A stretch of 64,000 nucleotides of DNA from an uncultured Serinicoccus sp. Lineage in GTDB: Bacteria; Actinomycetota; Actinomycetes; Actinomycetales; Dermatophilaceae. This document shows positions 1 to 64,000 of this stretch, piece after piece. The notes beneath the pieces are model-generated. The model ran no database searches. It saw only the letters and a list, made by a program, of their open reading frames with translations, and was not told where the DNA came from. Location of the stretch: NCBI RefSeq assembly GCF_947500995.1, contig NZ_CANMUA010000001.1:1-64000 (forward strand). The letters are read 5' to 3'. Position 1 is the first letter of the stretch; each line of letters begins with the position of its first letter. A program made the position numbers and the translations under genes.

Positions 1-249
1 AGCTGTCTGCCCTCCGTAGCGTGAGGAAGGTGTCGCATCAGGGTCGACATCTGACGAAGCGCGTCAGCGGAGGGCAGGCAGCGAGGAACGAGCTGTCTGC
101 CCTCCGTAGCGTGAGGAAGGTGTCGCATCAGGGTCGACATCTGACGAAGCGCGTCAGCGGAGGGCAGCGAGGAACGAGCTGTCTGCCCTCCGTAGCGTGA
201 GGAAGGTGTCGCATCAGGGTCGACATCTGACGAAGCGCGTCAGCGGAGG
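1..249. repeat. Three tandem copies of an 86-90 bp self-complementary repeat
   Basis: Copies begin at about 1, 91 and 177. Copy 1 is 90 bp. Copy 2 is 86 bp, lacking a 4-nt GCAG duplication. Copy 3 breaks off near 249. In each full unit CTGCCCTCCG near the start pairs perfectly with CGGAGGGCAG about 60 nt later, and inside lie a smaller CTGACG/CGTCAG stem and a TGTCG/CGACA pair, so each unit can fold into a nested hairpin. The third copy contains the TGA stop of the adjacent prenyltransferase gene, so the array looks like a duplicated gene end plus its 3' hairpin. The array touches the window edge and may continue upstream. No protein is supported here. Confidence 0.9.
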
Positions 250-1142
250 AACCACCAGGCCGCCCCCTGCAGGAGGACGAAGGCGACCATGGCCGCCACG
301 GACGGCCCGGGCCGCCCGTGGCCGAGGCGGTGGACGCCGAGGGCGGACAGCGGGGCCGCGAGGAGGCCGGCGAGCGCGACCGGCCAGGGGTGGACGACCA
401 GGCTCAGACCGTATGCCGCCACACCAGCCACCGCCCCGAGTCGCCGCAGCACCGGGGCCCGCAGCCGGGTGGCCAGCGTGTGCTTTCCCGCCGCGCGGTC
501 GGCGTCGCGGTCGGCCCACTGCGTCTCGAGCAGGTTGACGAAGGTCAGCAGCGTGAAGGGGAGGAAGGTGAGGGCCGCGGGCCCGAGCGCGGCACCGGCG
601 ACCACGGCCCCGGTGGCCGGCAGCAGCAGGCCGCCCAGGAGCGCGTTGGCCACCTCGCCCCACCCGTGCCGTGAGAACGGCCAGGGCCCGACGGAGTAGC
701 CCCATCCGCCCACCAGACCGAGCACGAGCAGCGCGGCCACCAGCCCGCTCACGATCCCGGTCACCAGGCCGAGAGCTGTCAGCACCGCAGCGAGTGCCGC
801 CGCCAAGACGGCGACGCGCAGCGCGAACGCGGCGGGCAGCCCGTGCTCCCTCAGGGCCCCGCTGCCGCCGGAGAACCGGGTGCGGACGGTGCGGGCGTCG
901 GTCTCGACGTCGGCGAACTCGTTGACCACGTGCACGCTGGTCGCGACCGCGACGACCACCAGGGCGGTCAGGGCCGCACCGGCCGGGGGCAGCGCCACCC
1001 CACCGGTCCTCACCCCCGCCGTCCCCGCGACCCAGCCCACGGCGTAGACCGCGAGGACGAGCAGGACCTGGTCGGGGCGGCTCATCCGGACGGCCGCGCG
1101 CAGCCGCACCGGCGCCGGCGCGGCGGGTCCGCCGCGGCTCAC
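240..1142 (-). CDS. UbiA family prenyltransferase
   Basis: Predicted 300-residue polytopic membrane protein. UbiA enzymes transfer a polyprenyl chain onto an aromatic or other acceptor at the membrane. The two Asp-rich motifs of the family are visible: NEFADVETD near residues 73-81 and DRDADRAAG followed by KHTL near 209-220. Between and after them are several Ala/Leu/Val-rich transmembrane stretches. I chose the GTG at 1142 because it overlaps the TGA of the upstream methyltransferase in a GTGA junction; an internal ATG at 1085 is the alternative. The neighbouring methyltransferase could act on the same quinone-like product (inference). The substrate cannot be read from sequence. The stop codon lies inside the tandem repeat at the window edge. 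Confidence 0.8.
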   Translation of the reverse strand: MSRGGPAAPAPVRLRAAVRMSRPDQVLLVLAVYAVGWVAGTAGVRTGGVALPPAGAALTALVVVAVATSVHVVNEFADVETDARTVRTRFSGGSGALREHGLPAAFALRVAVLAAALAAVLTALGLVTGIVSGLVAALLVLGLVGGWGYSVGPWPFSRHGWGEVANALLGGLLLPATGAVVAGAALGPAALTFLPFTLLTFVNLLETQWADRDADRAAGKHTLATRLRAPVLRRLGAVAGVAAYGLSLVVHPWPVALAGLLAAPLSALGVHRLGHGRPGPSVAAMVAFVLLQGAAWWFLR

Positions 1143-1768
1143 CGCCACGTGCCGACGAGCACCTGGACGTGGCCGCCCCGTCGGACCCAGCGTCGGGGCC
1201 GGCTCAGCTCCGGCTCGACGACCACCCAGGGACGGGCCCCGATGTCGGCTCCGCCGAGCCAGCAGGCCAGCCGGGCCAGCGGCGCGGCCCAGGCGGCGGC
1301 GCCGGTGGGCGGCGCCATGTCGACGACGGCGACACCCGCGCCCGGCCGGAGCACACCGGTGACTGAGCGCCACACCCCTGCCGGGTCGGGGGTCAGTGAC
1401 AGCGCGTAGGTCGCGATGACGGCGTCGAAGGGCAGGCCCGCGGCCGCCTCCCGCAGCGCCTCCGGGTCGGCCATGTCCCCCTGGACCAGCCGCAGCCGCC
1501 CCGGACCCGTCGCCGAGGCTCGCTTGCGTCGGGCCACCTCCAGCATCGCGGGGCTGCGGTCCAGGCCCACGACCGTGCCCGTCGGGCCGACATCGTGCAG
1601 GAGCGCCGGAAGGTTGAGCCCGGTCCCGCAGCCGAGGTCCAGCACCCGTTGGCCGGGTCGCAGTCCCAGTGCCGGGACGGCGAGGCGTCGGCCCACCGCG
1701 TACACCGGCTCGCCGGAGAGCAGGTCGTAGGACCGGGCCGTGAGCGCGCCGTAGCGGTCCACCCTCAC
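1139..1768 (-). CDS. Class I SAM-dependent methyltransferase
   Basis: 209-residue Rossmann-fold methyltransferase. Motif I is LDLGCGTGLN near residues 43-52, followed by an acidic motif II (GLDRSPAML) and a GDMADPEAL segment typical of the Methyltransf_11/25 families. The GTG start overlaps the stop of the upstream nuclease/helicase gene by GTGA, and its own stop overlaps the start of the prenyltransferase, so the three genes should be translationally coupled. Pairing with a UbiA-type enzyme recalls quinone biosynthesis (UbiE/MenG), but the sequence outside the SAM-binding core does not let me assign that role. The acceptor is unknown. Confidence 0.8.
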   Translation of the reverse strand: MRVDRYGALTARSYDLLSGEPVYAVGRRLAVPALGLRPGQRVLDLGCGTGLNLPALLHDVGPTGTVVGLDRSPAMLEVARRKRASATGPGRLRLVQGDMADPEALREAAAGLPFDAVIATYALSLTPDPAGVWRSVTGVLRPGAGVAVVDMAPPTGAAAWAAPLARLACWLGGADIGARPWVVVEPELSRPRRWVRRGGHVQVLVGTWR

Positions 1769-4700
1769 CCCGCCGGCCCGCCGGGGAGCACGCCGGCCCT
1801 CGCCCCTGCGTCGCACAGCCTGATGAAGGCCCCCAGCTGGAGCACGGCCGCCGGGCTCGCCGGCAGGTGGGCGGTGAGCACCTCGGAGCGGATGAGCACC
1901 GCCCGCCACTGCGCCCGGGAGATCGCGACGTTGAGCCGGTTGCGGCTCAGGAGGAACCCCATACCGCGCGGGACGTCGGCGGCGGACGAGGCGGTCATCG
2001 ACAGGATCGCGACGACGGCCTCCTGCCCCTGGAACGCGTCGACCGTCCCGACCCGGACCTGCCCCAGCCCGGCCTCGGCGAGATGCTCCCGGACGAGCGC
2101 CACCTGGGCGTTGTAGGGGGCGACGACGAGGATGTCGCGCTGCCGGAGCGGTCGCGGCCCGGAGTGGTCCTCGGGGTCGGTCCAGGTGGCCCCGAGGTGC
2201 GCCCGCACCTGGCGGACCACCTCGGCCGCCTCCTCCGGCGACCCGGTCCGGTTGCCCCGGTGCTCGAGCCGCACGACCTCCAGGCCTGGCTCCAGGCCCT
2301 CGAGCAGCCGCCGGGCCGGCGGGTCCGCGGAGCCCAGCTGGCCGGCGTAGGCCAGGTCGGACACCGGAGCGGTGAGCGCCGGGTGCATGCGGAAGGTGTG
2401 CTCCAGGAAGTACCCCCGCTCCGGCGGCAGCGTCTCCTCCTCCCCCATGAGCCAGCCCAGCGCCGACTCGTCCACCGGCTCGGCGTGCGTGCCCTGGCTG
2501 ACCTGCGGCAGCTGCTGCGGGTCGCCCAGCAGCAGGAGACGGCGGGCGGACCGTGCGGCCCCGACGGTCGGGGCGAGCGCGAACTGCCCCGCCTCGTCGA
2601 TGACGAGCAGGTCCAGGCCGCCGGGCTCGACCAGGTCGGGGTGGGAGAAGGTCCAGGCGGTGCCGCCGAGGACGCACCCGGTCCCCCGGTGCTCCTCGAG
2701 GTATGCCGCCCGCGCCGCCGTCGTGTCCGTCAGGGTGGTCCAGGTCGGCTCGGCGCTCTTCGGTGCCGACTTCGCGACCAGTCCTGCGTCGAGCCCCGCC
2801 CGCACCATGGCACCGAGGACGTTCTCGACGACGAGGTGCGACTGCGCCACCACGCCGACCCGCCAGCCGTGCTCCTCCACCAGCCGACGGACGACCCGGG
2901 ACCCGGTCCACGTCTTGCCGGTCCCGGGCGGGCCCTGCACGGCGACGTAGGAGTCGTCCATCGCCAGCAGCGCCGCCACGACGTCACCGAGCGCCCCCTC
3001 CCCGCCGCCGTGCGGGAGCGCACCACCGTCGCGCAGCCTCGGTGGACGACGTGCCAGCAGGTCCAGGGCCGCCGCACCGGGCAGCTCATGCTGGGCCAGG
3101 GCCTCGGCGGCGACGGCCGCGATGGCGGTCGGGATGGGCTCGGCGGGAGGCGGACGGTCCGGAGCGAGGGCCACGGGCAGGTCGGCGAAGACGTCGTCGG
3201 GCGGGCGGGCCTCGACCAGCCGGACCACCCGCGGGTCGTCCGCGTCGAGCTCGATCCCGTCCGCCCGGGCCGCGGCGTAGGGCGCACCCTCCGGACCATC
3301 GGCCCGCGCGGGCCCGGGAGCGGCGTAGACCACCTGCGCGCGCCGGGCCGTGCTCCCCGGCCCCCAGTCGCCCACGAGCCGCAGGGTGCGCCGCCAGCTG
3401 CGGGCCTTGCCCTCCGGGGGCGTCCAGTCGGCCACCACCTCGGCGGACTCGACGGCGAAGACGTCGCGGGTGCGCGCCCAGCTCTCCAGGGGGTGCTGGA
3501 GCCGGTCGAAGTGGCCCCACCAGAACTGCTTGGCCTCCCGCCGGTGGTAGCCGATCGCCGTGGCCAGCATGGCCCAGGCCTGCTCCTGCTCCGTCCGGTC
3601 GTGCGCGGGCCCGGCCCCGGCGCGGGCCTGCAGCGCCTCCTCCAGCACGCCCTCCTGCTCGGCGCTCTCCCGGGCCTGCGGCACCAGCACCCGGGGCACG
3701 ACCTGGTCGCGCACCCCGGCCTCCTCGGCCCGCTCCAGCAACCAGTCGCGCAGCCGCAGCGTCGAGACGCAGTCGTAACGGTTGTAGTCGGCCAGGTCGT
3801 CCAGCCGCCGGGTGGCCTCCGCGGGAGCGGCCTCCTCCAGGAGGCGGAACTCGTGGTAGGCCAGGATCGAGGCGTCACCGGAGCTCACGCCGTCCTCCGG
3901 GCGCAGCTGGGAGCCCATGTAGAGGGGCTCCAGCTTCTTGATGCTGTAGGACGGGGCGGCGACGAGGACCGAGCCGCGCACCACCGCGTAGAGGTCGACG
4001 AAGACCTCGGCCCGCAGGAGGTCGTCGAGCTCCTCCTCGCGTACCCGGTAGCGCATCGCCATGGCCTTGAGCGCGCCGGTCTCGTAGGGGGCGTAGTGGT
4101 AGACGTGCAGGTCCGGCCACCGGCGGCGTCGCTCCTGCAGGTCGTCGACGAAGGCGACGAAGGCGTCGCGCTCGGCCGCGAAGGAGTGCGCCCACGTCGG
4201 GGTGTAGCACCCGGCCGTGTCGAGCACGCCCCAGAGGTACTGCAGACCCGCGTGGGCCCGGTCGCCCTCGTCGTGGTGCGGGTCGCCCTCGAAGTCGAAG
4301 AAGAGGTCGCCCTCGCTGGGAGCAGGGAGCAGGGCCAGGGTCTGTGCGGCGGAGTTGGTCAACCGGTGGGCCACGGCGGCGCCGTCCGTGCTGCCTGCCT
4401 GCAGCTCAGCCTGGTCGCGCAGCCGGTCGAAGGAGGCGGCCACGATCCCCTCCGGCGCCTCCTGCGCGCCGGCCAGGTCGGCGACGGTCGCGATCCCCGC
4501 CTCCCGGAGCCGGCCACGTCGTCGCGCGTCCACCCCGGCGACGAGGAGCACGTCGTCCGCGGCCTCCGCGGCGGCCAGGCAGTCCTCGCAGCGTCCGCAC
4601 ACGGCATACCGGTCCTGGCCCCAGCGCACCGGTTCACCCTCCTCCAGGTGCCCCCGCACGAACCGTTCGAACCGTCCGCGCACCTCGGAGAAGACCGCGA

Positions 4701-5292
4701 CGAGATCGTCCGTGGGCAGGTCGCGCCGCTCGCCGGAGCCGAGCAGCAGGCTCGCGGTGGCGGAGACCGGCACACCCGCGCGGCGGAGCTGGTCGGCGTA
4801 GGCGCCGAGCTGGACCAGCGCGAGCGCCGACTCCGAGCGGGCCAGCTTGGCGTCGCACACGCGCCAGCCGTCGTCCGCGCGCTCGAGCACGTCGGCGTAG
4901 CCGAGCATCCGCCCGTCGAAGAGGCACGCCTGGGACACCGCCAGGGCGTCCCCGGCGAGCGCGGCGCGGGTCGCCCCGGCGGCCTCGCGCAACGACTCCA
5001 CCGACAGCGGCGGGGCCGGTCGCGTCAGCTCGAGGAGCCCGCCGCGGTCCCGGTATGCCGTGAGCAGCTCGGCCTCGTGCCGGTCGCCCAGCCGGGCGAG
5101 CAGGTCGCGCACGGGGTCGCGTCGCGGCTCCGGGCGCGGCGTCCGCCCCAGCGCGGCGTCGAGGTGCCGCAGGAAGGCGTACTCGCACCCCAGTGCCGCA
5201 CGCAGGTCCGACGGGCTCCACACCACCCGCTGCGGTCCCAGCACGAGCATCCGCTCCACCTCCTCCGGCGCGCCCAGCCTCGCACACGGCAC
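1765..5292 (-). CDS. TM0106-type RecB-like nuclease fused to SF1 DNA2/NAM7-type helicase
   Basis: About 1175 residues in three parts. The N-terminal third has a RecB-like nuclease signature (CDAKLARS near 145-152, then LVQLGAYADQL) and a CxxCxxC cluster (CGRCEDC near 231-237) that could ligate an Fe-S cluster, as in some RecB-family nucleases. Next comes an RNase H-like segment (FFDFEGDP near 328). The C-terminal third is an SF1 helicase: Walker A GPPGTGKT near 786, DEAG near 896, LLLGDPQQLPQ, and TVDAFQGQE near the end. I placed the start at the GTG at 5292 because GGAGG sits 6 nt upstream. The family is widespread in actinobacteria but poorly characterised. A role in DNA repair or processing is inference. 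Confidence 0.85.
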   Translation of the reverse strand: MPCARLGAPEEVERMLVLGPQRVVWSPSDLRAALGCEYAFLRHLDAALGRTPRPEPRRDPVRDLLARLGDRHEAELLTAYRDRGGLLELTRPAPPLSVESLREAAGATRAALAGDALAVSQACLFDGRMLGYADVLERADDGWRVCDAKLARSESALALVQLGAYADQLRRAGVPVSATASLLLGSGERRDLPTDDLVAVFSEVRGRFERFVRGHLEEGEPVRWGQDRYAVCGRCEDCLAAAEAADDVLLVAGVDARRRGRLREAGIATVADLAGAQEAPEGIVAASFDRLRDQAELQAGSTDGAAVAHRLTNSAAQTLALLPAPSEGDLFFDFEGDPHHDEGDRAHAGLQYLWGVLDTAGCYTPTWAHSFAAERDAFVAFVDDLQERRRRWPDLHVYHYAPYETGALKAMAMRYRVREEELDDLLRAEVFVDLYAVVRGSVLVAAPSYSIKKLEPLYMGSQLRPEDGVSSGDASILAYHEFRLLEEAAPAEATRRLDDLADYNRYDCVSTLRLRDWLLERAEEAGVRDQVVPRVLVPQARESAEQEGVLEEALQARAGAGPAHDRTEQEQAWAMLATAIGYHRREAKQFWWGHFDRLQHPLESWARTRDVFAVESAEVVADWTPPEGKARSWRRTLRLVGDWGPGSTARRAQVVYAAPGPARADGPEGAPYAAARADGIELDADDPRVVRLVEARPPDDVFADLPVALAPDRPPPAEPIPTAIAAVAAEALAQHELPGAAALDLLARRPPRLRDGGALPHGGGEGALGDVVAALLAMDDSYVAVQGPPGTGKTWTGSRVVRRLVEEHGWRVGVVAQSHLVVENVLGAMVRAGLDAGLVAKSAPKSAEPTWTTLTDTTAARAAYLEEHRGTGCVLGGTAWTFSHPDLVEPGGLDLLVIDEAGQFALAPTVGAARSARRLLLLGDPQQLPQVSQGTHAEPVDESALGWLMGEEETLPPERGYFLEHTFRMHPALTAPVSDLAYAGQLGSADPPARRLLEGLEPGLEVVRLEHRGNRTGSPEEAAEVVRQVRAHLGATWTDPEDHSGPRPLRQRDILVVAPYNAQVALVREHLAEAGLGQVRVGTVDAFQGQEAVVAILSMTASSAADVPRGMGFLLSRNRLNVAISRAQWRAVLIRSEVLTAHLPASPAAVLQLGAFIRLCDAGARAGVLPGGPAG

Positions 5293-5339
5293 CGACAACC
5301 TCCCTCGGCGTCCCGTGCCCCGGCACCGGGCCTGGGATC

Positions 5340-6068: not shown

Positions 6069-6481
6069 GCACCCGGGTCCAGCGCCTCGCGCAGGCGGGC
6101 GGCGTAGTCAGCCGCCTCGGGGCCGGCATACCTCGTCCGCGGCCAGAAGAACCCGCGCAGACCGTCGCCCTTCGTCCGCGGCACCACGTGGACGTGCAGG
6201 TGCGGCACCGACTGGCTGACCACGTTGTTCATCGCCACGAAGCTGCCCTGGGCCCCCAGCGCCGTCCGCACCGCCCCCGCGACGTCACGAGCGGCACCGA
6301 AGAGCGGCACGACGAGGTCGTCGGGCAGCTCGGTGAGCGTGTCGACGTGGCGCCGGGGCACGAGCAGCACGTGCCCCTTGAAGACCGGCCGGGTGTCGAG
6401 GAAGCCGACGACCTCCTCCCGCTCGAGCACGGTCTGCGCCGGCTCCTCGCCGGCGACGATGCGGCAGAAGAGGCAGGCCAT
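6065..6481 (-). CDS. HIT family protein (histidine triad hydrolase)
   Basis: 138-residue protein with the diagnostic triad HLHVHV near residues 93-98, an N-terminal CLFCRIVAGE motif and a GHVLLVPRRHV core. HIT proteins hydrolyse nucleoside phosphoramidates and related adenylated compounds. I chose the ATG at 6481, immediately before the Cys-rich N-terminus shared by the family; a GTG three codons upstream is possible. The first Cys of CxxC and a downstream His suggest a bound metal, as in Hint-like proteins (family knowledge). It lies just downstream of an aminotransferase gene on the same strand and is convergent with the channel gene. Confidence 0.9.
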   Translation of the reverse strand: MACLFCRIVAGEEPAQTVLEREEVVGFLDTRPVFKGHVLLVPRRHVDTLTELPDDLVVPLFGAARDVAGAVRTALGAQGSFVAMNNVVSQSVPHLHVHVVPRTKGDGLRGFFWPRTRYAGPEAADYAARLREALDPGA

Positions 6482-6491: not shown

Positions 6492-7820
6492 CTAGCCGCC
6501 GGTGGCCCCGAGCACCTGGTGTATGCCGCGGGCCACCCCCGCGGCGATCTGGTCCACCTCGGCGTCGCTCACGACGAGCGGGGGGCCGAGCAGCAGCAGG
6601 TCGCCGTTCGTCCCGTCCGCGCAGCCGGTGCTCGGGTAGACGAGCACCCCCTGCTCCCGGCAGGCTTCGGTGACCCGCTCGGTCACCCGCTCGGCACGGG
6701 GGAAGGGCTCCCGGGTCGTCTCGTCCGCGACCAGCTCGACGGCCTGCAGCAGCCCGCGCCCGCGCACGTCACCGATGCCGGGGACCCGGGCGAGGTGGCG
6801 GTGGAGGGCGTCGTGCAGCCGGGCACCCTGCCGGGCCGAGGCCTCGACGAGGCCGTCCCGCTCCAGGATGCGCAGGACGGCCAGCCCGGTGGCGGCACCG
6901 ACGACGTGGTGGGAGTAGGTGAAGCCGTGGACGAACCCCGCGCGGGACAGCACCTCGTGCACCGGGCCGCTGACGACCGCGAGCCCCAGCGGCCAGTAGC
7001 CCGAGGCGGTGCCCTTCCCGGCCGTGAGCACGTCCGGACGCAGGCCGACGTGCTCGCTGGCGAACCACCGGCCGGTGCGCCCGAAGCCGGTCATGACCTC
7101 GTCGGCGACGACGAGGACGCCGTGGCGACGGCATACCTCGGTCACCGCCGGCCAGTAGTCGTCCGGCGGGACGCAGGCCCCCAGCCCGGCACCCGCGACG
7201 GGCTCGGCGATGAACGCCGCCACGCGCCCGGGGCCGATGCGCTCGATGGTCTCCTCCAGCACCTGGGCGTGGCGCGCGCCACAGCCGTGCGGATGGGTGT
7301 CCGGGAAGACGCAGCGGTACTCGTAGGGGGTGCTGGTGTGCTCGGCGCCGGTGAGCCAGGGCAGGTAGGGGGCCCGCAGCCCGGCGCGACCGGACACGCT
7401 CAAGGCACCCCTGCTGTTGCCGTGGTAGGAGCCGCGTCGGCCGATGACGACGTCCCGGTCCTCCCCGCGGGCCAGGTGGTAGGCCCGCGCCATCTTCAGG
7501 GCCGACTCCACCGCCTCGCTCCCCCCGGAGACGGGGTAGATGCGCGGGTCCTCCAGCGGGAGCAGCGGGGCGAGGGCGTCGGCATACTCCTCCAGCACCT
7601 CGCTGGAGAAGGTGGACCCGTGCACGTAGGCGACCCGCGACGCCTGGGCGGCGGCCGCCTGCACGACCTCCTCCACCCCATGGCCGACGCCGACGACGAC
7701 CGCGCCACCGGCCGCGTCGAGGTAGCGGCGCCCGTCGACGTCGACGAGGACCGCGCCCTCGCCGTGGTCGATGCGGACCCGGTCGCCGCCGCCGCGGGAG
7801 AAGACGTGCCGCGAGCCCAT
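6492..7820 (-). CDS. Class III PLP-dependent aminotransferase
   Basis: 442 residues, full length for the family. The PLP-binding lysine is in TAGKGTASG near residue 268; DEVMTGFGRTG marks the cofactor aspartate, and GGSEAVESALKMAR is the phosphate-binding region. The ATG at 7818-7820 lies 4 bp after the stop of the next aminotransferase gene, so the two are probably co-translated. Family members convert omega-amino acids or adenosylmethionine-type donors to aldehydes or ketoacids. The adjacent aminotransferase and aldehyde dehydrogenase imply degradation of an amine, diamine or omega-amino acid (inference). The exact amino donor cannot be read from sequence. Confidence 0.85.
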   Translation of the reverse strand: MGSRHVFSRGGGDRVRIDHGEGAVLVDVDGRRYLDAAGGAVVVGVGHGVEEVVQAAAAQASRVAYVHGSTFSSEVLEEYADALAPLLPLEDPRIYPVSGGSEAVESALKMARAYHLARGEDRDVVIGRRGSYHGNSRGALSVSGRAGLRAPYLPWLTGAEHTSTPYEYRCVFPDTHPHGCGARHAQVLEETIERIGPGRVAAFIAEPVAGAGLGACVPPDDYWPAVTEVCRRHGVLVVADEVMTGFGRTGRWFASEHVGLRPDVLTAGKGTASGYWPLGLAVVSGPVHEVLSRAGFVHGFTYSHHVVGAATGLAVLRILERDGLVEASARQGARLHDALHRHLARVPGIGDVRGRGLLQAVELVADETTREPFPRAERVTERVTEACREQGVLVYPSTGCADGTNGDLLLLGPPLVVSDAEVDQIAAGVARGIHQVLGATGG

Positions 7821-9195: not shown

Positions 9196-9265
9196 GAGGA
9201 CTCTCCTCGGGTCGTGGGTGAGGTCGGGGTATGCCGCGCGGCCAGGTCCTGTCCGGCCCTCGCCC

Positions 9266-13130: not shown

Positions 13131-13215
13131 CCACCCCACGCTACCCCGGAGCCGGGGCCGCCGACGGTGCGCGTCCACCGCCGCCCGGGTGGGGTCGGCA
13201 TACCATCGGCACATC

Positions 13216-38653: not shown

Positions 38654-38659
38654 CCCTTG

Positions 38660-40125: not shown

Positions 40126-40298
40126 GACGGTCGGTCCCTGGTCGCGGGTGACGACGGTGGCCGGTCCCTGGTCCCCCACCGTCCGCCCCCTCCCGGCCCG
40201 GGGGAAGTCGGGTCGGGTCGAGGGTGCGGTCCCGGCTCCGGGGAAGAGGAGCCGGGGCGTCGACGGACGGGGGGAGGCCAGGGTGCGGTCGCCCGAGG

Positions 40299-53385: not shown

Positions 53386-55506
53386 ATGACGTCACCGGCG
53401 ACCCCCTTCCACGACCTGTCCCACTACGTGGCCCTCCCCCGGGTGTCCGGGCTGGCGCTCAGCGCGGACGGGACGCGTCTGGTGACCACGGTGTCGACGC
53501 CCACCTCCTCGGGCACCGGCTTCGTCTCCGCGCTCTGGGAGCTGGACCCTGCGGGTGAGCGGGCGGCATACCGCCTGACGCGCAGCGCCAAGGGGGAGAC
53601 CGGGGCCGCGTTCAGCGCCGGCGGCGACCTCTACTTCACCTCCGCCCGTCCCGACCCCGACGACGAGGACGGCGAGCCCTCCGCAGCGCTGTGGCAGGTC
53701 CCGGCGACCGGCGGTGAGGCGCGCGTCGTCCTGCGACGCCCCGGCGGGGTGTCGGGCGTCGTGTGCGCGCGCGACGCCGAGCGCACCCTCGTCGTCGCCG
53801 GCCTGCTGCCCGGCGCCTCGGACGAGGCCGGGCACCGGACCCTGCACGAGGGGCGGAGCGAGGCCAAGGTGGACGCGATCCTGCACTCCTCCTACCCCGT
53901 CCGCTACTGGGACCACGACCTCGGCCCGCAGGTGCCGCAGGTGTTCGCCCTCGAGGACGGCCCGGACCCCTCCCTGGAGAAGAGTGAGGAGGAGGCCGGG
54001 CTGCCCGGGACGACCGACCGGGCCCGGCAGCGCCACCTGCGGCTGCTCACCGGGGGCCAGCACCCCCCGCTGCACGAGCCCGGCCCGAGGATGGCGCCGG
54101 ACGGCAGCTTCGCGCTCGTCGACCTCACCGTGCCCCTCGGGCGGGCCGACCTGCGATCCACGATCGCCCGGGTCGACGTCGCGGACGGCGGCCTCCGGAC
54201 GATCCTGGACCTGGAGGGCTCGGAGGCGCACGCCGGGCCGGTGAGCCCGGACGGCACCCGGGCCGTCGTCGTGGTGGGCGAGATGACCGCCCCGGACCGG
54301 CCGCCGCACCCGCGCCTGCACGTCATGGACACCGGGACCGGCGCGCTGACCCCCCTGGCCCACGACTGGGACCGCTGGGCGCAGCCGGTCGCCTGGACCC
54401 CGGACGGATCGTCGGTCCTGGTGCTGGCCGACAGCGACGGACGTCGCCCGGTGTTCCGGATCGACGTCGCCGACGGGACGGTCGAGCAGGTCACCCACGA
54501 CGAGGCCGCGTGGAGCGATCTCGTCGTCTCCCCGGACGGCGCCACCGCCTACGGCGTGCGGTCCTCCTACCTCTTCCCGCCCGAGGTCGTCCGGCTCGAC
54601 CTCGCCACCGGCGAGGTGACCCCGCTCCCCGGTCCGACGGAGCGTCCGCAGGTCCCCGGCCGGCTCGAGGAGGTCGAGACCACCGCGGCGGACGGCAGCC
54701 GGGTCCGCGCCTGGCTCGCGCTGCCCGAGGGCGAGCCGACGTCCGCGGCCGGCCACCCGCTGCTGCTGTGGATCCACGGCGGGCCGCTCGGGTCGTGGAA
54801 CGCCTGGACGTGGCGGTGGAACCCGTGGCTCATGACGGCCCAGGGGTATGCCGTGCTCCTCCCCGACCCGGCGCTGTCCACCGGCTACGGCCAGGAGTTG
54901 GTGCGGCGCGGCTGGGGTGCCTGGGGCGACGCTCCCTACACCGACCTCATGGCGGTCACCGACGCGACGGTGGCGCGCAGCGACATCGACGCCGACCGCA
55001 CCGCGGCGATGGGCGGCTCGTTCGGCGGCTACATGGCCAACTGGGTCGCCGGGCACACCGACCGCTTCCGGGCGATCGTCACGCACGCCTCGTTGTGGGC
55101 GCTGGACGGCTTCGGCCCGACGACCGACGCCGCGTTCTACTGGCAGCGCGAGATGACGCCGCAGATGAGCGCGGACCACAGCCCGCACCGGTTCGTGGAG
55201 CAGATCGTCACCCCGATGCTCGTCATCCACGGCGACAAGGACTACCGCGTGCCGATCGGCGAGGGCCTGCGGCTGTGGTACGAGCTGCTCTCGCGCTCGG
55301 GGCTGCCCCAGGCGGAGGACGGCACGACCCCGCACCGGTTCCTGTACTTCCCGCAGGAGAACCACTGGATCATGAGCCCGCAGCACGCGAAGGTCTGGTA
55401 TTCCGTCGTCAGCGCCTTCCTGGCCGAGCACGTGCTCGGTGAGGAGCCGCCGGCCGCCGCCGAGCACCTCGGGCTCACGCCCCCTCCCGCACCGGACGCG
55501 CAGTAG
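53386..55506 (+). CDS. S9 family peptidase (acylaminoacyl-peptidase-like)
   Basis: 706 residues. WD40-like propeller (residues 1-~420), then an alpha/beta hydrolase domain with the nucleophile Ser in GGSFGGYM near 545, Asp in HGDKDYRVP near 616 and His in QENHWI near 660. It trims oligopeptides or N-acylated residues. The ribosome-binding AGGA lies 7 nt upstream of the ATG. Its last codons and stop lie inside the first unit of a 22-bp tandem repeat. Confidence 0.9.
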   Translation: MTSPATPFHDLSHYVALPRVSGLALSADGTRLVTTVSTPTSSGTGFVSALWELDPAGERAAYRLTRSAKGETGAAFSAGGDLYFTSARPDPDDEDGEPSAALWQVPATGGEARVVLRRPGGVSGVVCARDAERTLVVAGLLPGASDEAGHRTLHEGRSEAKVDAILHSSYPVRYWDHDLGPQVPQVFALEDGPDPSLEKSEEEAGLPGTTDRARQRHLRLLTGGQHPPLHEPGPRMAPDGSFALVDLTVPLGRADLRSTIARVDVADGGLRTILDLEGSEAHAGPVSPDGTRAVVVVGEMTAPDRPPHPRLHVMDTGTGALTPLAHDWDRWAQPVAWTPDGSSVLVLADSDGRRPVFRIDVADGTVEQVTHDEAAWSDLVVSPDGATAYGVRSSYLFPPEVVRLDLATGEVTPLPGPTERPQVPGRLEEVETTAADGSRVRAWLALPEGEPTSAAGHPLLLWIHGGPLGSWNAWTWRWNPWLMTAQGYAVLLPDPALSTGYGQELVRRGWGAWGDAPYTDLMAVTDATVARSDIDADRTAAMGGSFGGYMANWVAGHTDRFRAIVTHASLWALDGFGPTTDAAFYWQREMTPQMSADHSPHRFVEQIVTPMLVIHGDKDYRVPIGEGLRLWYELLSRSGLPQAEDGTTPHRFLYFPQENHWIMSPQHAKVWYSVVSAFLAEHVLGEEPPAAAEHLGLTPPPAPDAQ

Positions 55507-55649: not shown

Positions 55650-56543
55650 TCAGTCCATGCCGAGGCGCAGCCGCGCCGCCGACGCCGGGTCCGCCGAGGC
55701 GATGACGACCTCGTCGGACGCGCCTGAGGCTCTCCCGTCGGCGGCGGCCTGCCCGTCACCGGTCAGCATGAGCAGGCCGCGGCGGCGCAGACCGTGGCGC
55801 ACCGCTGGTTCGTCGAGCGCGCCCAGGTCGACGCCCTCGCCGAGCGGCCGTCCGAGCGCGGCCTCGACCCGGGCGCGGAGGCGTTCGTCCTCACCGGAGC
55901 TGCCCGCCCCGGGCGCCGATCCCGGTATGCCGTCCGCCAGGTGCTCGCGGAACGGCACGATCCGGGCGGACCACAGGTCGTCGACGCGTCGGCGCAGGTC
56001 GTCGAGGGTGCCGGAGTTGTCGAGGAGCACGTCGGCCGCGGCCCGCCGCTGCCCGTCGTCCGCCTGCGCCCGGATCCGTGAGCGGGCCGCCTGTTCGTCC
56101 ATGCCGCGCAGCTCGACCAGCCGGCGCAGCCGCTCCTCTTCGGGCACGTCGGCGATCACGGTGAGGGCGTAGTCGGCGCCCATCCCCAGCTCGACCAGGA
56201 GCGGGACGTCGTGCACGACGACCGCGTCATCGGGCGCGGCCTCGAACAGCTGCTGCGACCGGCGACGGATCAGGGGGTGGGTGATCGCCTCCAGGTCACG
56301 GCGGGCCTGCGCGTCGCCGAACACGACCTGTCCCAGCGCGGGCCGGTCGAGGCTGCCGTCCGCGGCGATGACGTCCGGGCCGAAGCGTCCGGCGATCTGC
56401 GCCAGCCCGGGCGTGCCAGGACCGACGACCTCGCGCGCGACCGCGTCGGCGTCCACGACGACCGCACCGAGCGACGCCAGCTGCGCGGACACCGTCGACT
56501 TCCCCGAGCCGATGCCGCCGGAGAGTCCGACGCGCAACGTCAT
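55650..56543 (-). CDS. coaE: Dephospho-CoA kinase with C-terminal extension
   Basis: 297 residues. P-loop GGIGSGKST at 9-17; THPLIRRR and VHDVPLLVELGM are CoaE motifs. It makes CoA from dephospho-CoA and ATP. The kinase ends near residue 200; the remaining ~95 residues are a divergent extension (mycobacterial CoaE also carries an extra domain). The ATG overlaps the stop of the upstream fusion gene by ATGA. Confidence 0.9.
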   Translation of the reverse strand: MTLRVGLSGGIGSGKSTVSAQLASLGAVVVDADAVAREVVGPGTPGLAQIAGRFGPDVIAADGSLDRPALGQVVFGDAQARRDLEAITHPLIRRRSQQLFEAAPDDAVVVHDVPLLVELGMGADYALTVIADVPEEERLRRLVELRGMDEQAARSRIRAQADDGQRRAAADVLLDNSGTLDDLRRRVDDLWSARIVPFREHLADGIPGSAPGAGSSGEDERLRARVEAALGRPLGEGVDLGALDEPAVRHGLRRRGLLMLTGDGQAAADGRASGASDEVVIASADPASAARLRLGMD

Positions 56544-57382: not shown

Positions 57383-60300
57383 TCAACTCGCCGCCTCGGC
57401 ACGGTCCATCGCGGCGTAGATCCGCTTGGCCGACACCGGGGCGGGCGTGCCGAGCCGCTGGGCGAAGAGGGAGACCCGCAGCTCCTGGACGGACCAGACG
57501 ACCTCCAGGACGTCGGGGTCCTGCCGGCGGTGCGGCGGCAGCGCCTCGAGGAAGTCCGCGAGGTCGCGCTCGACGACGTGCACCTCCTCCATGCGGCGGC
57601 GATCGCGGGGCAGGTCCTGGACCCCCTTGTCCAGCCGCTCGGCCATCGCCCGCAGCCACACGACCATCCGCGGCAGCCGGGCATGCCCCACCTCCGTCAC
57701 GAAGCCGGGCCGCACCAGGGCGTCGAGCTGGCGGCGCAGGTCGGTCGCGAGGTCGGCGGCGGCCGGGGCGTCCAACCGCTGCAGCCGCAGCGACACCTCG
57801 CGCGCGGTGTCGAGGATCGGCACGAGCGACTCCACGATCTCCAGCACCCGCGGCACGCTCTGCTGACGCACCCCGGCGAGCGCGGCCTCGAACTGGGCGG
57901 GGTCGCGGACGGTCGCCCCCGGCTGCTGCGCCACCACCGAGTCCACGGCCGCGGCCAGGGCGTCCTCGAGCAGCGCCGGCACCGAGCCGTGCGGGTTGTG
58001 CCCCAGCGAGAGCTTCTGCTGGTTGGACAGCAGCGACAGCAGCCGTTTCCACGGCGGCGTCGTGCCGAGCAGCAGCAGGCGGCGCACCCCCCGCAGCGTC
58101 TCCCGGTCGGCCTCCGAGCGGGTCGCGAGCACCCGGACGTCCACGGCCTGCCCGGTGTCCACCAGCGCCGGGAAGCCCTGCACGGTCCGCGGACCCACCG
58201 AGCGGCTGAAGTCCTCCGGCAGCGGGTCGAGGTCGGCCGGCCAGGTCGTGAGGCCGGTGCGCTCGACGCCCGAGGCCGCGGCGGCCATCGTGCTGCGCAC
58301 CTGCCCGGCGAGCCGCTCCTGCAGGTCCGCGAGGTCCTTGCCCTCCCCCAGCACCTCGACCCGGCCACGGCCCCGTCTGCCCCTGCCGCCGCGCGCGCCC
58401 TTCCCCGCGCCACCCTGGGGACCCGCGCCGTCCCCCGGACGCACGGCGCGCTCCACCCGGAAGGTCATCCGCAGGTGGTCGGGCACGCGGTCCCAGTCCA
58501 TGTCCTGGGGCGAGACCCGCACCAGCCCGCGCCGGGTCAGCTCCTCGGCCAGCGCCTCACGGACCGGGACGACCCCGACCGAGCCGGCCTCGCGCATACC
58601 CCGCAGCGCGGCCCGCGCGTGGTCCGGTGCGGGGACGAAGTTGCGGCGCACGTCCTTGGGCAGCGCCTTGACCAGCGCCGTCACCAGCTCCTCGTGCATG
58701 CCGGGGACCAGCCAGTCGAAACCCTCCTCGGTGACCTGGTTGAGCACCTCGACCGGCACGTGGGTGGTGACGCCGTCGGCGTTCGCGCCGGGCTCGAACT
58801 GGTAGGTCAGGCCCAGGGTGAGCTCGCCCTGGCGCCACCCGGTCGGGAAGTCCTGCGCGCTGACCTGCCCGCCGGCGTCCCCGACGAGCAGCTCCTCGGT
58901 GAAGGTGAGCAGACCGGGATCCTGCGTCCGGGCGGTCTTCCACCAGGTGTCAAAGTGGGCGCCGGACACGACCTCGGCCGGGATCCGCGCGTCGTAGAAC
59001 TCGACCAGCGTCTCGTCGTCGACGAGGATGTCGCGCCGCCGGGCCCGCGCCTCGAGCTGCCCCAGCTCCTTGACCAGCCGCCGGTTGGCGTGGAAGAACT
59101 CGTGCCGCGTCTCCCAGTCCTCCTCGACGAGGCCCTGGCGGATGAAGAGGTCGCGGGCGGTCTCGGGGTCGATCCGGCCGAGCGGCACGGTGCGCCCCGC
59201 CACGAGCGGTATGCCGTAGAGCGTCACCCGCTCGTCGGCGACCGCCGACCCCGCCGAGCGCGACCAGCGCGGCTCGCTGTAGGACCGCTTCACCAGGTGC
59301 GCCGCGGCCCGTTCGACCCAGGCCGGGTCGACGACCGCGTTGGTGCGGGCCCACAGCCGCGTCGTCTCCACCAGCTCGGCGCTCATCACCCAGTCCGGGT
59401 TGCGGCGGTGCAGGACCGAGCCGGGCTGGAGCACGAAGCGGGCGTTGCGGGCCCCCAGGTAGGCCCGGGCCTCCCGCTCCCACATGCCCACGTTGGACAG
59501 CAGCCCGGTGAGCAGCGAGGTGTGCACCTGGTCGGCGTTCGCCGGGTGCTGGTTGACCTCCAGCCCCAGCTGCTTGGCGGCCCGCTTGAGCTGGGTGTGC
59601 AGGTCCTGCCACTCGCGCACCCGCAGGTAGTGGAGGAACTCGGCCTTGCACAACCGCCGGAACGCGCTGCCGGAGAGGTCCTTCTGCTGCTGCTGCAGGT
59701 AGCGCCACAGGTGGAGGACGACGAGGAAGTCGCTGTCGACGACGTCCTTGGCCGACGCCTCCCCCTCCTGCCGCTGACCGCCGCGGCTGGCCGGGCCGGT
59801 GGCCCCACCGACCCGCCGGAACCGCGCGTGCGCCTGGTCGGCCTGCTGCTGGTGGTCGGCGGGCCGCTCGCGCACGTCCTGGATGGACAGCGCCGACACG
59901 ATGACGAGCACCTCCTTGAGGGAGCCCTGCCGCTCGGCCTCGATGAGCATGCGGGCCAGGCGCGGGTCGACCGGCAGCCGCACGATCGCCCGGCCGTAGG
60001 CCGTGAGCCGCTTCCGGGGCAGGTGCGCGGGGGCGGTCGGGTCGATGGCCTGGAGCTCGGTGAGCAGGCGCACGCCGTCGGCGACCTGGCGGGAGTCCGG
60101 CGGCTCGAGGAAGCCGAACCTCTCGATGTCGCCCAGCCCCAGGTTGGTCATCTGCAGGATGACGCTGGCGAGGTTGGTGCGCAGGATCTCCGGGTCGGTG
60201 AACTCCGGGCGGGCCGCGAAGTCGTCCTCGCCGTAGAGCCGGATGGCGATGCCGTCCGCGAGCCGGCCGCACCGGCCGGCCCGCTGGTTGGCCGAGGCCT

Positions 60301-61528
60301 GGCTGATCGGCTCGATGGGCAGCCGCTGGACCTTGAGCCGCTGGCTGTAGCGGCTGATGCGCGCGGTGCCGGTGTCCACGACATACCGGATGCCCGGGAC
60401 GGTCAGCGAGGTCTCGGCGACGTTGGTCGACACGACGATGCGCCGCCCGGCGTGCCGGGAGAACACCCGGTGCTGCTCGGCGGCGGAGAGGCGGCCGTAG
60501 AGCGGCAGCACCTCGGTGCCGGGCAGGTCCAGCCCCGTGAGCGCGTCGCAGACGTCGCGGATCTCGCGCTCCCCGGAGCAGAAGACGAGGACGTCCTCAC
60601 CCAGCCCGTCGCGCCCGGTGGCCTCGGTCCACAGCTCCTCGACGGCCTCGACCACGCCGGTGACCTGGTCGACCTCGACCTCGGTCGCCGACCCGTCCTT
60701 GCGGGGCGGACCCTCGCGGACCAGGGGTCGGTAGCGCACCTCCACCGGGTAGGTGCGTCCGGAGACCTCGATGACCGGGGCCGGCTCCCCCTGCGCGTCG
60801 GAGAAGAACGCGGCGAAGCGCTGCACGTCGATGGTCGCGGAGGTGATGACGACCTTGAGGTCGGGGCGGCGCGGCAGCAGCTGCTTGAGGTAGCCCAGGA
60901 TGAAGTCGATGTTGAGGCTGCGCTCGTGCGCCTCGTCGATGATGATCGTGTCGTACCGCCGCAGGTCACGGTCCCGCTGCAGCTCGGACAGCAGGATGCC
61001 GTCGGTCATGACCTTGACGAGCGTGTCGTCGCGGGAGACGTCGGTGAAGCGGACCTGGTAGCCGACCACGGTGCCGAGATCGACCCCGAGCTCCTCGCTC
61101 ACCCGCTCGGCGACCGAGCGGGCGGCGATCCGCCGGGGCTGGGTGTGCCCGATCATCCCTTCGACACCGCGCCCCAGCTCGAGGCAGATCTTGGGCAGCT
61201 GGGTGGTCTTGCCCGAGCCGGTCTCGCCGGCGACGATGACGACCTGGTGGTCGCGGACCGCCGCCAGCAGGTCCTCCCGGCGCTCGCTGACGGGCAGCTC
61301 GGGCGGGTAGTGCAGCGCCGTGGGGGCCGGCGCGGCGGCCCGACGTGCCTCGACGCCGGCGGGGGACCGGGTATGCCTGGCCTCACGTCCGTCGCGGGTG
61401 TCGCCCTGGCGACGGCGCCCCGAGGCGTTCCCGCCCCGCCCCCGACGCCGTCTGCCGGGGCCCCCGGACCGCCCGTCCTCGGCGGGACCGGACCGGTCGG
61501 GTCGCGGACGTCGGTCGGGCTCGGGCAC
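57383..61528 (-). CDS. hrpA: ATP-dependent RNA helicase HrpA
   Basis: About 1381 residues, DEAH-box helicase. Walker A GETGSGKT near 98-105, DEAHERS near 196, SATID and QRAGRCGR motifs, then the HA2/OB and the long DUF3418 C-terminal region. HrpA-type helicases remodel RNA and rescue stalled ribosomes. The N-terminal ~60 residues are Arg/Gly-rich and disordered. I favour the GTG at 61528, since a minus-strand TACAGT (61536-61541) is 7 nt upstream, allowing a leaderless start; the GTG at 61537 is the alternative. Confidence 0.9.
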   Translation of the reverse strand: MPEPDRRPRPDRSGPAEDGRSGGPGRRRRGRGGNASGRRRQGDTRDGREARHTRSPAGVEARRAAAPAPTALHYPPELPVSERREDLLAAVRDHQVVIVAGETGSGKTTQLPKICLELGRGVEGMIGHTQPRRIAARSVAERVSEELGVDLGTVVGYQVRFTDVSRDDTLVKVMTDGILLSELQRDRDLRRYDTIIIDEAHERSLNIDFILGYLKQLLPRRPDLKVVITSATIDVQRFAAFFSDAQGEPAPVIEVSGRTYPVEVRYRPLVREGPPRKDGSATEVEVDQVTGVVEAVEELWTEATGRDGLGEDVLVFCSGEREIRDVCDALTGLDLPGTEVLPLYGRLSAAEQHRVFSRHAGRRIVVSTNVAETSLTVPGIRYVVDTGTARISRYSQRLKVQRLPIEPISQASANQRAGRCGRLADGIAIRLYGEDDFAARPEFTDPEILRTNLASVILQMTNLGLGDIERFGFLEPPDSRQVADGVRLLTELQAIDPTAPAHLPRKRLTAYGRAIVRLPVDPRLARMLIEAERQGSLKEVLVIVSALSIQDVRERPADHQQQADQAHARFRRVGGATGPASRGGQRQEGEASAKDVVDSDFLVVLHLWRYLQQQQKDLSGSAFRRLCKAEFLHYLRVREWQDLHTQLKRAAKQLGLEVNQHPANADQVHTSLLTGLLSNVGMWEREARAYLGARNARFVLQPGSVLHRRNPDWVMSAELVETTRLWARTNAVVDPAWVERAAAHLVKRSYSEPRWSRSAGSAVADERVTLYGIPLVAGRTVPLGRIDPETARDLFIRQGLVEEDWETRHEFFHANRRLVKELGQLEARARRRDILVDDETLVEFYDARIPAEVVSGAHFDTWWKTARTQDPGLLTFTEELLVGDAGGQVSAQDFPTGWRQGELTLGLTYQFEPGANADGVTTHVPVEVLNQVTEEGFDWLVPGMHEELVTALVKALPKDVRRNFVPAPDHARAALRGMREAGSVGVVPVREALAEELTRRGLVRVSPQDMDWDRVPDHLRMTFRVERAVRPGDGAGPQGGAGKGARGGRGRRGRGRVEVLGEGKDLADLQERLAGQVRSTMAAAASGVERTGLTTWPADLDPLPEDFSRSVGPRTVQGFPALVDTGQAVDVRVLATRSEADRETLRGVRRLLLLGTTPPWKRLLSLLSNQQKLSLGHNPHGSVPALLEDALAAAVDSVVAQQPGATVRDPAQFEAALAGVRQQSVPRVLEIVESLVPILDTAREVSLRLQRLDAPAAADLATDLRRQLDALVRPGFVTEVGHARLPRMVVWLRAMAERLDKGVQDLPRDRRRMEEVHVVERDLADFLEALPPHRRQDPDVLEVVWSVQELRVSLFAQRLGTPAPVSAKRIYAAMDRAEAAS

Positions 61529-62122: not shown

Positions 62123-63370
62123 TCAGAGCAGCTGGGAGAGCGCGTGGATCGTCACGCCCACGAGCGCGCCGACGACCGTGCCGTTGAGCCGGATGAACTG
62201 CAGGTCCCGGCCGACGTGCAGCTCGATCTTGTCCGAGGCCTCCCGGGCGTCCCAGCGGCGGATCGTCCCCGAGATGACCGACGTGATCTCCGGGCCGTAG
62301 CGCTGGACGAGGTCCACGACGGTGTCGGCGGTCCAGGCGTCGAGCCGGGCCTGCAGCCGCTCGTCCTCGACCAGCTGCCGCCCGAGCGACTCCAGGGCGG
62401 AGGACATCCGCGAGCGCAGCGCGCTGGCGGGGTCCTCCAGCGCGACCAGGACCGAGCTGAGCAGCGTCTCGCCGAGCGCGACGCCGGTGGCGCTCACCTG
62501 CGGGTGCTCCAGCACGCGGTCCTTGAGCGACTCGAAGCGCTCCTGGGTGCGCGGGTCCTGCTGCAGGTCGCGGCCGAGGTCGGCCAGGTAGGCGTCCAGC
62601 GCGTGCCGCACGGTGTGCTGAGGGTCGTCCTTGACGTCCTTGGCCCAGCGCAGGACCTCGGTGTAGACGCGTCGGGTGACCTGGTCGTTGACCCAGGTCG
62701 GTGCCCAGGTGGGCGCACGCGAGCGCACGATCGACTCGACCTGGTCCTGGTGCAGGGCCAACCAGGCGTGCAGCTCACGGGCGAGCAGGTCGACCAGGCC
62801 CCGGTGCGAGCCGTCCTCCACGACCCGCTCCAGCAGGTGGCCGGCCACCGGGGACAGCGGCTCGCGTCGGACGCGCGGCAGGATGACGTCGTCGACGAGG
62901 ATCCGGATCTCCTCCTCGTCCACCCGCTCGACGGCACGGATGAGGAAGGGCACCGCCTCGGTGACGACCCGCTCCGCGTGCTCGGGCTCGCGCACCCACT
63001 CCCCCAGCCGCCGCACGACCTGCGCGTCGAGGATCTTCTCGCGCAGCACCGGCGCGGTGAGGAAGTTGTCGCTGACGAACTGCTCGAGGCTGTCGCCCAG
63101 GTCGTCCTTGCGGCGGCGCACCAGCGCGGTGTGCGGGATCGGCAGCCCCAGCGGGTGGCGGAAGAGCGCCACCACGGCGAACCAGTCGGCGATCGCCCCG
63201 ATCATGCCCGCCTCGGCGCCGGCGTTGACGTAGGCCCACACGCCGGTCCGGTCGTGGGTGAGGACGTAGATCACCGCCATGAGCACGAGCAGGCCGGTCG
63301 CCACCATCCGCATCTGCCGCAGCCCGGCGCGGCGCGTGGCGTCGTCGAGGCGTGTGCCGGTGCTCTCCAC
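62123..63370 (-). CDS. DUF445 family membrane protein
   Basis: 415 residues. N-terminal hydrophobic helix with MIGAIADWFAVVALFRHPLG (residues ~55-75), the family hallmark, a long helical cytoplasmic or periplasmic region, and a C-terminal hydrophobic segment (FIRLNGTVVGALVGVTIHAL). YjiN/DUF445 proteins are of unknown function. Confidence 0.9.
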   Translation of the reverse strand: MESTGTRLDDATRRAGLRQMRMVATGLLVLMAVIYVLTHDRTGVWAYVNAGAEAGMIGAIADWFAVVALFRHPLGLPIPHTALVRRRKDDLGDSLEQFVSDNFLTAPVLREKILDAQVVRRLGEWVREPEHAERVVTEAVPFLIRAVERVDEEEIRILVDDVILPRVRREPLSPVAGHLLERVVEDGSHRGLVDLLARELHAWLALHQDQVESIVRSRAPTWAPTWVNDQVTRRVYTEVLRWAKDVKDDPQHTVRHALDAYLADLGRDLQQDPRTQERFESLKDRVLEHPQVSATGVALGETLLSSVLVALEDPASALRSRMSSALESLGRQLVEDERLQARLDAWTADTVVDLVQRYGPEITSVISGTIRRWDAREASDKIELHVGRDLQFIRLNGTVVGALVGVTIHALSQLL

Positions 63371-63585
63371 GCGTCCTCCTGCTCCCTCACGCGGTGGTCG
63401 CCCGTCCGGCCGACCTGCTGACGGTCCAGCCTAAGCCGTCGGGCCACGACCGTTCCGGCAGCAACGGGGCAGACGGCCTCGGCGACGTCCTTCGGGGCCC
63501 TGACCTGCAGGCATACCGCGTCGTTATGCCTCGCTCGCCTCCAGGCGCGTTGTGCGGACCGGGGTGGTTCGGCACCCTGGGCGCC

Positions 63586-64000
63586 ATGACCACGCAGAGC
63601 CCGGCGCCACCGACCACGCCGGTGGGCCCCGGTGACCACCCGCTGCTGCGCCGGATCCGGGAGTCGGTCATCGGCGAGGACCACGTCATGAGCACGCCCT
63701 ACGGCCGGCGCCGCGTCACCTACGCCGACTACACCGCCTCGGGCCGTGCCCTCACCTTCATCGAGGACGCCATCCGCGACGTCGTCCTGCCCGGCTATGC
63801 CAACACGCACACCGAGTCCAGCGGCACCGGGCTGCAGACCACGAGGTTGCGCGAGGACGCCCGGGCCGCGATCCGCTCAGCGGTCGGCGGTGACGAGGAC
63901 ACCGTGGTGCTCTTCACCGGCTCGGGGTGCACCGGCGCCATCGCCAAGATCATCGGGGTCCTCGGGCTGCGCATCCCCTCCGTCCTCGAGGACGCCCACC
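63586..64000 (+). CDS. Class V aminotransferase, 5' part (runs off window)
   Basis: 138 codons visible before the window ends. After a Pro/Thr-rich N-terminus come YADYTASGRAL and NTHTESSGTGLQTTRLREDAR, then VLFTGSGCTGAIAKI, the N-terminal and phosphate-binding segments of cysteine desulfurase/class V aminotransferase-like PLP enzymes. The lysine lies beyond the window. The ATG at 63586 is the first in frame. Confidence 0.8.
   Translation, partial: MTTQSPAPPTTPVGPGDHPLLRRIRESVIGEDHVMSTPYGRRRVTYADYTASGRALTFIEDAIRDVVLPGYANTHTESSGTGLQTTRLREDARAAIRSAVGGDEDTVVLFTGSGCTGAIAKIIGVLGLRIPSVLEDAH

Follow-up and report, generated by a model that had tools for sequence, protein, structure and literature searches.

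A dispersed and seemingly directional DNA word in Serinicoccus and related Actinomycetia, possibly a self-DNA tag with dialects

The window that we analysed is a stretch of 64,000 nt from an uncultured Serinicoccus sp., part of a host genome of 3.8 Mb in 45 contigs (henceforth G000). Its nearest named loci are from Serinicoccus, of the family Dermatophilaceae, and its zwf product shares 97% identity with the Serinicoccus chungangensis protein. The word GTATGCC (GGCATAC when read on the other strand) is scattered along the window in 33 exact copies, 18 in the first form and 15 in the second, against 1.94 ± 1.20 copies and a maximum of 6 in 100 dinucleotide-preserving shuffles. A first-pass annotation of this DNA had put the number at about 35, in nearly equal orientations (about 18 to 16), with roughly six expected by chance. 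Its count and balance were close to the real ones and none of its 21 coordinates is off by more than three bases; about two copies, not six, are to be expected, which makes the enrichment larger than it had seen. The five cases in which it found the word encoding Gly-Ile-Pro with a rare isoleucine codon (GGC-ATA-CCN) are all correct. Two of the 33 sites are intergenic. All are listed here, each established by exact match (the intergenic ones together with gene calls); the relatives are the four Serinicoccus relatives considered below.

411-417, plus strand: GTATGCC site
2701-2707, plus strand: GTATGCC site
4603-4609, minus strand: GTATGCC site
5053-5059, plus strand: GTATGCC site
6125-6131, minus strand: GTATGCC site
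6521-6527, plus strand: GTATGCC site
7130-7136, minus strand: GTATGCC site
7581-7587, minus strand: GTATGCC site
9229-9235, plus strand: GTATGCC site, intergenic
13197-13203, minus strand: GTATGCC site
13305-13311, plus strand: GTATGCC site
14226-14232, minus strand: GTATGCC site
15117-15123, plus strand: GTATGCC site
17290-17296, plus strand: GTATGCC site in the dnaE1 intein, at about residue 1117
20738-20744, plus strand: GTATGCC site
28952-28958, minus strand: GTATGCC site
29546-29552, plus strand: GTATGCC site
33476-33482, minus strand: GTATGCC site
33808-33814, plus strand: GTATGCC site, Gly-Ile-Pro with ATA, in the MurD-type ligase gene
35436-35442, plus strand: GTATGCC site
35755-35761, minus strand: GTATGCC site, kept in 4/4 relatives
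38276-38282, minus strand: GTATGCC site, kept in 3/4 relatives
43290-43296, minus strand: GTATGCC site, Gly-Ile-Pro with ATA, kept in 2/4 relatives
43687-43693, plus strand: GTATGCC site, kept in 4/4 relatives
43805-43811, minus strand: GTATGCC site, Gly-Ile-Pro with ATA, kept in 4/4 relatives
45484-45490, plus strand: GTATGCC site, left member of an inverted pair 80 bp apart, kept in 4/4 relatives
45564-45570, minus strand: GTATGCC site, right member of the same pair (partner 45484), kept in 4/4 relatives
53565-53571, minus strand: GTATGCC site, kept in 4/4 relatives
54846-54852, plus strand: GTATGCC site, kept in 4/4 relatives
55925-55931, plus strand: GTATGCC site, Gly-Ile-Pro with ATA, in the CoaE gene, kept in 3/3 alignable relatives
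59209-59215, plus strand: GTATGCC site, Gly-Ile-Pro with ATA, in a helicase (DUF3418) gene
61371-61377, plus strand: GTATGCC site
63510-63516, minus strand: GTATGCC site, intergenic

Across the whole of G000 there are 1948 copies (996 + 952), about one per 1.7–2 kb, against 86 (48 + 38) of the reversed word used as control. In 544 kb of contig C1, the lists of over-represented words from k = 6 to k = 10 are topped by GTATGCC or its overlapping extensions. The extended motif is gGTATGCCGt, and the non-palindromic extended form GGTATGCCGT has 96 copies in this stretch, where a third-order Markov model gives 0.7. Flanks outside positions −1 to +8 of the motif carry little information, and on that ground a dispersed repeat (repetitive extragenic palindrome or miniature inverted-repeat transposable element) was rejected as its source. 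The 544 kb hold 318 sites, 45 of them intergenic while 8.6% of the bases are intergenic, and the gene-borne copies divide into 141 sense and 120 antisense. Given that division, and given that inverted pairs within 100 bp number 12 among the 318 sites, three of them intergenic, an RNA-level signal or terminator was rejected as a general cause.

A shuffle that keeps both proteins and codon usage left 17.0 copies (6 shuffles) in the 438 coding sequences of the stretch, where 256 are observed. This 15-fold excess is conservative, as the shuffled pool includes the motif's own TAT and ATA codons. That the word forces rare codons, as had been claimed, is plain from the called genes: 116 TAT codons overlap the motif and 65 lie outside it (64% in the motif, with 2812 TAC outside), and 31 ATA codons overlap it against 16 outside (66%, with 4487 ATC outside). 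The genome-wide count and the codon comparison had both been named beforehand as possible refutations; neither the count, nor the codon-preserving null, nor the comparison of codons inside and outside the motif spoke against the claim, and the enrichment is extreme against composition and codon nulls alike. Genes were called with a simple GC-phase caller, parts of genomes were read, and several of the word tests below rest on samples of 40–160 kb.

The loci of the four relatives span about 21 kb, so that 9–10 of the 33 sites can be aligned. Motif 7-mers are kept in 10/10, 10/10, 9/10 and 7/9 cases in the four, other 7-mers in fractions of 0.67, 0.69, 0.45 and 0.32. Rare A/T-ending codons are kept in 8/8, 8/8, 7/8 and 5/7 cases within the motif and in 5/19, 5/19, 2/18 and 3/16 outside it. 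One could suppose that context-specific deamination or Vsr-like patch repair makes GTATGCC from a single precursor. The step from TACGCC to TATGCC is indeed a C-to-T change at a CpG, and two one-letter neighbours of the word are depleted about 2.4-fold (GGCATGCCG, 11 against 25.5; GGTCTGCCG, 11 against 26.9; second-order model). However, GGTACGCCG, the precursor that deamination would need, shows next to no depletion (14 copies, 17.2 expected), and where one of the relatives carries the word and the window does not (twelve cases), the window words are varied, with GTACGCC in just one. For these reasons deamination or Vsr-type conversion from GTACGCC was rejected, in keeping with the first-pass annotation, which had set CpG deamination aside; and as a conversion process would also leave unexplained the orientation rule and unrelated words such as CGAAGGGGG (see below), we consider it very improbable. 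Varied precursors together with site conservation argue for selection or drive acting on the DNA, with sites that appear to arise from many precursors and then to be held, and not to be made by a single mutational step. The annotation had proposed DNA-level selection or a conversion bias. The DNA-level enrichment is upheld, and a conversion bias towards the word is possible in the form of uptake-driven molecular drive; the spread over genus and family, the dialects and the short-range orientation rule were all unforeseen.

The word has no preferred chromosome strand. The split in the 544 kb of G000 is 167:151 (p 0.40), five stretches of other genomes are also even, and the six give p values of 0.33–1.00. 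FtsK-orienting polar sequences (KOPS) and architecture-imparting sequences (AIMS) are short dispersed words that are strand-polar from origin to terminus; unlike them the word here is without such polarity, and a segregation guide of this kind was rejected for want of skew. The earlier description of the word as not polar thus holds for replication, but perhaps not for function. Neighbouring copies alternate in G000 (203 opposite against 114 same), and up to about 0.8 kb just 24 of 111 pairs are in the same orientation, while opposite pairs are about as frequent as expected at random. When ten genomes and five word variants were pooled, 330 of 929 pairs at 10–800 bp had the same orientation, against 463 ± 15 after orientation shuffling (z −8.7), a deficit that fades at 1–2 kb (z −2.0) and is gone at 2–4 kb (z 0.7). 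The rule is strong in G000, G007, G153, G034, G033 and G184. It is not a coding artefact, because the preference for one strand and phase that the word has in genes would oppose it. Since same-orientation copies are scarce within about 0.8 kb and opposite copies are not, reading of the site seems to have a direction. Most simply, a single copy on each strand would be enough over 0.5–1 kb, and the two orientations would do different jobs.

Directional reading brings in the rival that we take most seriously, a Chi-like site of a non-RecBCD helicase-nuclease. A strand-translocating enzyme, either AdnAB, which is actinobacterial, or another from these bacteria, would switch at the word from degradation to recombination and so mark self DNA. 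The Chi sites of RecBCD/AddAB are likewise directional, self-marking and species-specific, and a Chi-like role accounts for orientation-specific reading, for scarcity in prophages (see below) and for differences between genera, known Chi words differing between bacteria. Known Chi sites are, however, biased with replication, unlike the word in our six stretches. Their enrichment is usually modest and aided by codon usage, which the word here opposes, and a site that its enzyme recognises at some passages and misses at others would not be expected to exclude same-orientation copies. The distribution of the RecC family, matched in 10 of 19 GTATGCC-rich genomes (not found in nine) and in 11 of 21 others, shows that RecBCD is not the reader, and a RecBCD Chi was rejected on that count. 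On balance we give a Chi-like site a real but minor chance. A one-strand DNA methyltransferase or restriction-like recognition site, with over-representation as a by-product, seems quite improbable. The non-palindromic word, its differences between genera and its scarcity in prophages would fit a modification specificity, but restriction sites are usually avoided and here the word is enriched 15-fold against codon usage, and the same-orientation exclusion is left without a reason.

The first-pass annotation had advised a look at relatives, and the word is found to extend well beyond the window's own genome. Of the 31 genomes in the genus group, all but G023 (87 copies against 35 of the control) are enriched in it. 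Among 163 genomes of the family, 24 of 48 genera, about half by hand count, are rich in it, a genus being counted as rich if at least one genome has more than 1000 copies and at least three times the reversed control; the remaining genera are at or nearer background. Sister genera poor in GTATGCC often use other words. CGAAGGGGG has 797–1939 copies in all 15 genomes of genus g49 and all three of g58, and 11–80 in the other 145 of the 163. CGGATGCCG has 968–2347 copies in every genome of g33, g39 and g68, six in all; the remaining 157 have no more than 448, and g2 shows a weaker excess. CGATGCGG and GTACGNCG are probably further replacement words. The dialects largely exclude each other. G088 and G089, both of g39, combine two words (CGGATGCCG, 1011 and 968; GTATGCC, 1282 and 1255), as if in dialect transition or with a relaxed reader, and words differ even within g39 and g55. 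In samples of 60–120 kb set against the codon null, G131 favours CGATGCGG (53 against 11.5), G132 GTACGGCG (63 against 16.8) and G137 GTACGCCG (32 against 6.9), while GTATGNCG is the word of G033, G034 and Flexivirga. Samples of 40–160 kb gave weak words in G137, G142, G058 and G031 and no clear word in G185, G117, G032 and G023.

Another order was sampled through 14 named loci (13 Nocardioides and one Pimelobacter, 268 kb). There the four top 8-mers under both nulls are GTACGNCG with each of the four bases, 2.2- to 3.3-fold above the codon null; in 15 proteobacterial loci GTACGNCG was outside the nine top words. Across 217 genomes of the class, the degenerate word GTAYGNCG reaches 12786 copies against 826 of the control (G305). 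It is at least 4-fold over the reversed control in families f21, f28, f31, part of f39 and others, with a ratio of about 1 in most of f22 and f44 and of 0.4–1.2 in f38; this control is not codon-aware, and ratios under about 3 were not taken as enrichment. The dialects go by clade: on a comEC tree of 46 rows, 35 of them labelled, six dialect labels need five changes, the minimum, against 15.0 when shuffled, a clustering aided by near-copies and with g49 and g58 outside the tree. A hand alignment of the dialect words gave a loose common G-A-G-G scaffold and nothing stricter.

These dialects bear on the idea of a chromosome-architecture or nucleoid-protein site selected for roughly even spacing, architecture having been among the roles first suggested for the word. 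The comparison is with highly iterated palindrome 1 (HIP1) of cyanobacteria, an octamer iterated across a large clade, palindromic and nearly invariant, unlike the non-palindromic and dialectal word here. Presence throughout the genome, in genes and in spacers, conservation, the abundance of GTAYGNCG and the somewhat even spacing in some genomes (coefficient of variation 0.89 in G000 and 0.77 in G153) all agree with such a role. Yet spacing is uneven in G007 (0.99) and G173 (1.43), simple binding does not predict orientation-specific exclusion, and a dialect switch would require at least 1000 site changes, although words differ between genera and even inside two of them. A pure architecture role is less likely for these reasons, and we judge it improbable.

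Competence genes and mobile DNA offer another view of the word. In G000 comEC is uninterrupted and lies beside a gene that we read as comEA-like. In G002 and G018, both of this genus, prophages of about 40 kb sit at one and the same point of the gene (C1:1161–1201 kb and C46:68.5–109 kb, respectively, read in part). They differ in the genes read; those recognised were a serine integrase, tape measure, tail and endolysin genes. The word is scarce in this recently acquired mobile DNA: the sampled parts of the two prophages, 40.35 kb together, hold 3 copies, and 24.15 kb of their flanks hold 11 (p 0.0035). A scan of viral contigs gave no relative of the integrase. In two further genera the comEC matches break at a similar place in the profile, with gaps of about 28 kb in G117 (C1:2176–2204 kb) and about 44 kb in G168 (C1:850.6–894.6 kb). 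Insertions in this gene recur, and the two that were read are phages; its repeated interruption hints at competence under conflict, and conflict between transformation and prophages is the subject of a 2025 paper (PMC12637031). Matches to comEC are partial in G015 and G023. In the latter, the sole member of the genus without the word, the match is limited to residues 3–304 of a 713-residue query and ends near a contig end (C11:7186–8504) where other sequence is joined; the C-terminal half is unmatched in the assembly, so competence could have been lost or the assembly could have a gap. In the motif-rich G024 comEC was unmatched. PilM is almost absent (2 of 52 genomes).

The known systems that the word most resembles are the DNA uptake sequences (DUS) of Neisseriaceae and the uptake signal sequences (USS) of Pasteurellaceae. 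Like DUS, as described in passages of PMC3630211, it is a word of about 10 bp with thousands of copies, intergenic enrichment and dialects that follow phylogeny; one DUS dialect has 1543, 3770 and 3729 copies in three genomes, and the eight dialects have a common CTG core. Hairpin-forming inverted pairs are a further likeness to DUS, represented here by one perfect intergenic case in G000 (C1:283423–283466), in which the motif ends both arms and which resembles DUS-containing terminators. Unlike in DUS, inverted pairs are infrequent (see above) and the actinobacterial words seem, by the hand alignment, to share no strict three-base core; the main difference is the same-orientation rarity within about 0.8 kb, which has no counterpart in the passages of PMC3630211 and PMC1939737. 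With USS, as described in passages of PMC1939737, the word has in common its high density, its excess in non-coding DNA and the absence of chromosome-strand bias, which is given there for USS and DUS alike; most copies lie in genes, as in Haemophilus influenzae, and the sequences are unrelated. In our analysis the word, its copy number, dialects, conservation, scarcity in prophages and lack of replication bias appear, taken together, to fit DUS/USS better than they do Chi, HIP1, KOPS or restriction sites. It is dispersed, non-palindromic, far above composition and of a density within the DUS/USS range, and competence machinery is present with it, and also where no word was detected.

The reading that we favour, though tentatively and with somewhat less than an even chance of being right, is that of a directional self-DNA tag, probably for transformation. 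The word gGTATGCCGt would be a signal by which DNA identifies itself, maintained by selection or by molecular-drive conversion and read with direction, each strand being served separately. It would work like DUS and USS: incoming DNA would be bound at the word by a surface or membrane component of a Tad-pilus/ComEA/ComEC route. The same-orientation exclusion suggests that orientation decides the strand or flank that is used. Import of that strand or flank would then depend on orientation, kin DNA would be preferred, and one copy per orientation per fragment would suffice. As the specificity of the reader drifted, recombination with imported kin DNA would rewrite the genome to a new dialect. 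Uptake itself we infer.

A wider proposal is that much of the class Actinomycetia has one ancient directional self-DNA code near GTAYGNCG, diversified into dialects (GTATGCCG, GGATGCCG, CGATGCGG, CGAAGGGGG), which would be the uptake or self-recognition tag of an overlooked natural-transformation system with orientation deciding import. We regard this as possible and rather doubtful. Two proteobacterial families are known to have dialectal self-DNA words, and to our knowledge such a tag would be the first uptake signal outside these. Among the matches listed from the open-licence literature none reports a dialectal self-DNA word in Actinobacteria, and the words themselves are in no relevant paper of that literature. 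If the word is an uptake tag, transformation would be common and under sequence control in a phylum in which it has had little study, gene flow would be limited by dialect, and DNA given the appropriate word might ease work with intractable environmental actinobacteria. If it is not, a strong directional process is still at work on entire genomes, as the orientation rule and the dialect switches show.

Several points weigh against a tag for uptake. We know of no demonstration of natural transformation in Dermatophilaceae. A ComEC match was obtained in 93 of the 94 genomes tested, whether or not a word had been detected in them, and TadE-family genes are in 40 of 40, so that their presence does not track the motif. 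The presence profiles of ComEC, TadE and PilM gave no reader protein, and no candidate for a ComP-like minor pilin or other receptor emerged. The orientation rule is also uneven. Within the pool, G173 (p 0.05) and G131 are marginal, G134 contributed 3 pairs only, and G102 is not significant at 10–800 bp (p 0.11), though just 3 of its 22 pairs under 500 bp have the same orientation. Outside the pool, same and opposite pairs at 10–800 bp stand at 56:69 in G132, 7:9 in G137, 77:111 in Nocardioides, 36:45 in Flexivirga and 19:22 in Knoellia, and the weak word GGATGCCG of G031 reverses the rule (19:8). Uptake in H. influenzae, unlike the rule found here, is unaffected by USS orientation in the passages concerned (PMC1939737). 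Micrococcus luteus, the actinobacterial model of transformation, uses Flp pili, and none of six terms for uptake sequences occurs in PMC4322843.

Some other features of the window were noted in passing. The dnaE1 gene (15697–20643, minus strand) carries an intein with a LAGLIDADG domain at residues ~720–1170, coinciding with a local dip in GC. By its gene order, 28673–40733 resembles a division and cell-wall (mra/mur) cluster, in which the MurD-type ligase (32621–34168) was checked against Pfam. An intergenic repeat around CAACCATTCrCGrCGCyCGGT, often in tandem with a period of 32 bp, lies at 57287 and 57319 and recurs at C1:339914–340010, 418867–418963, 419959–420119 and 537006. Its AACCATT part is found 17 times in 544 kb, where 0.3 copies are expected, and all 17 are intergenic.

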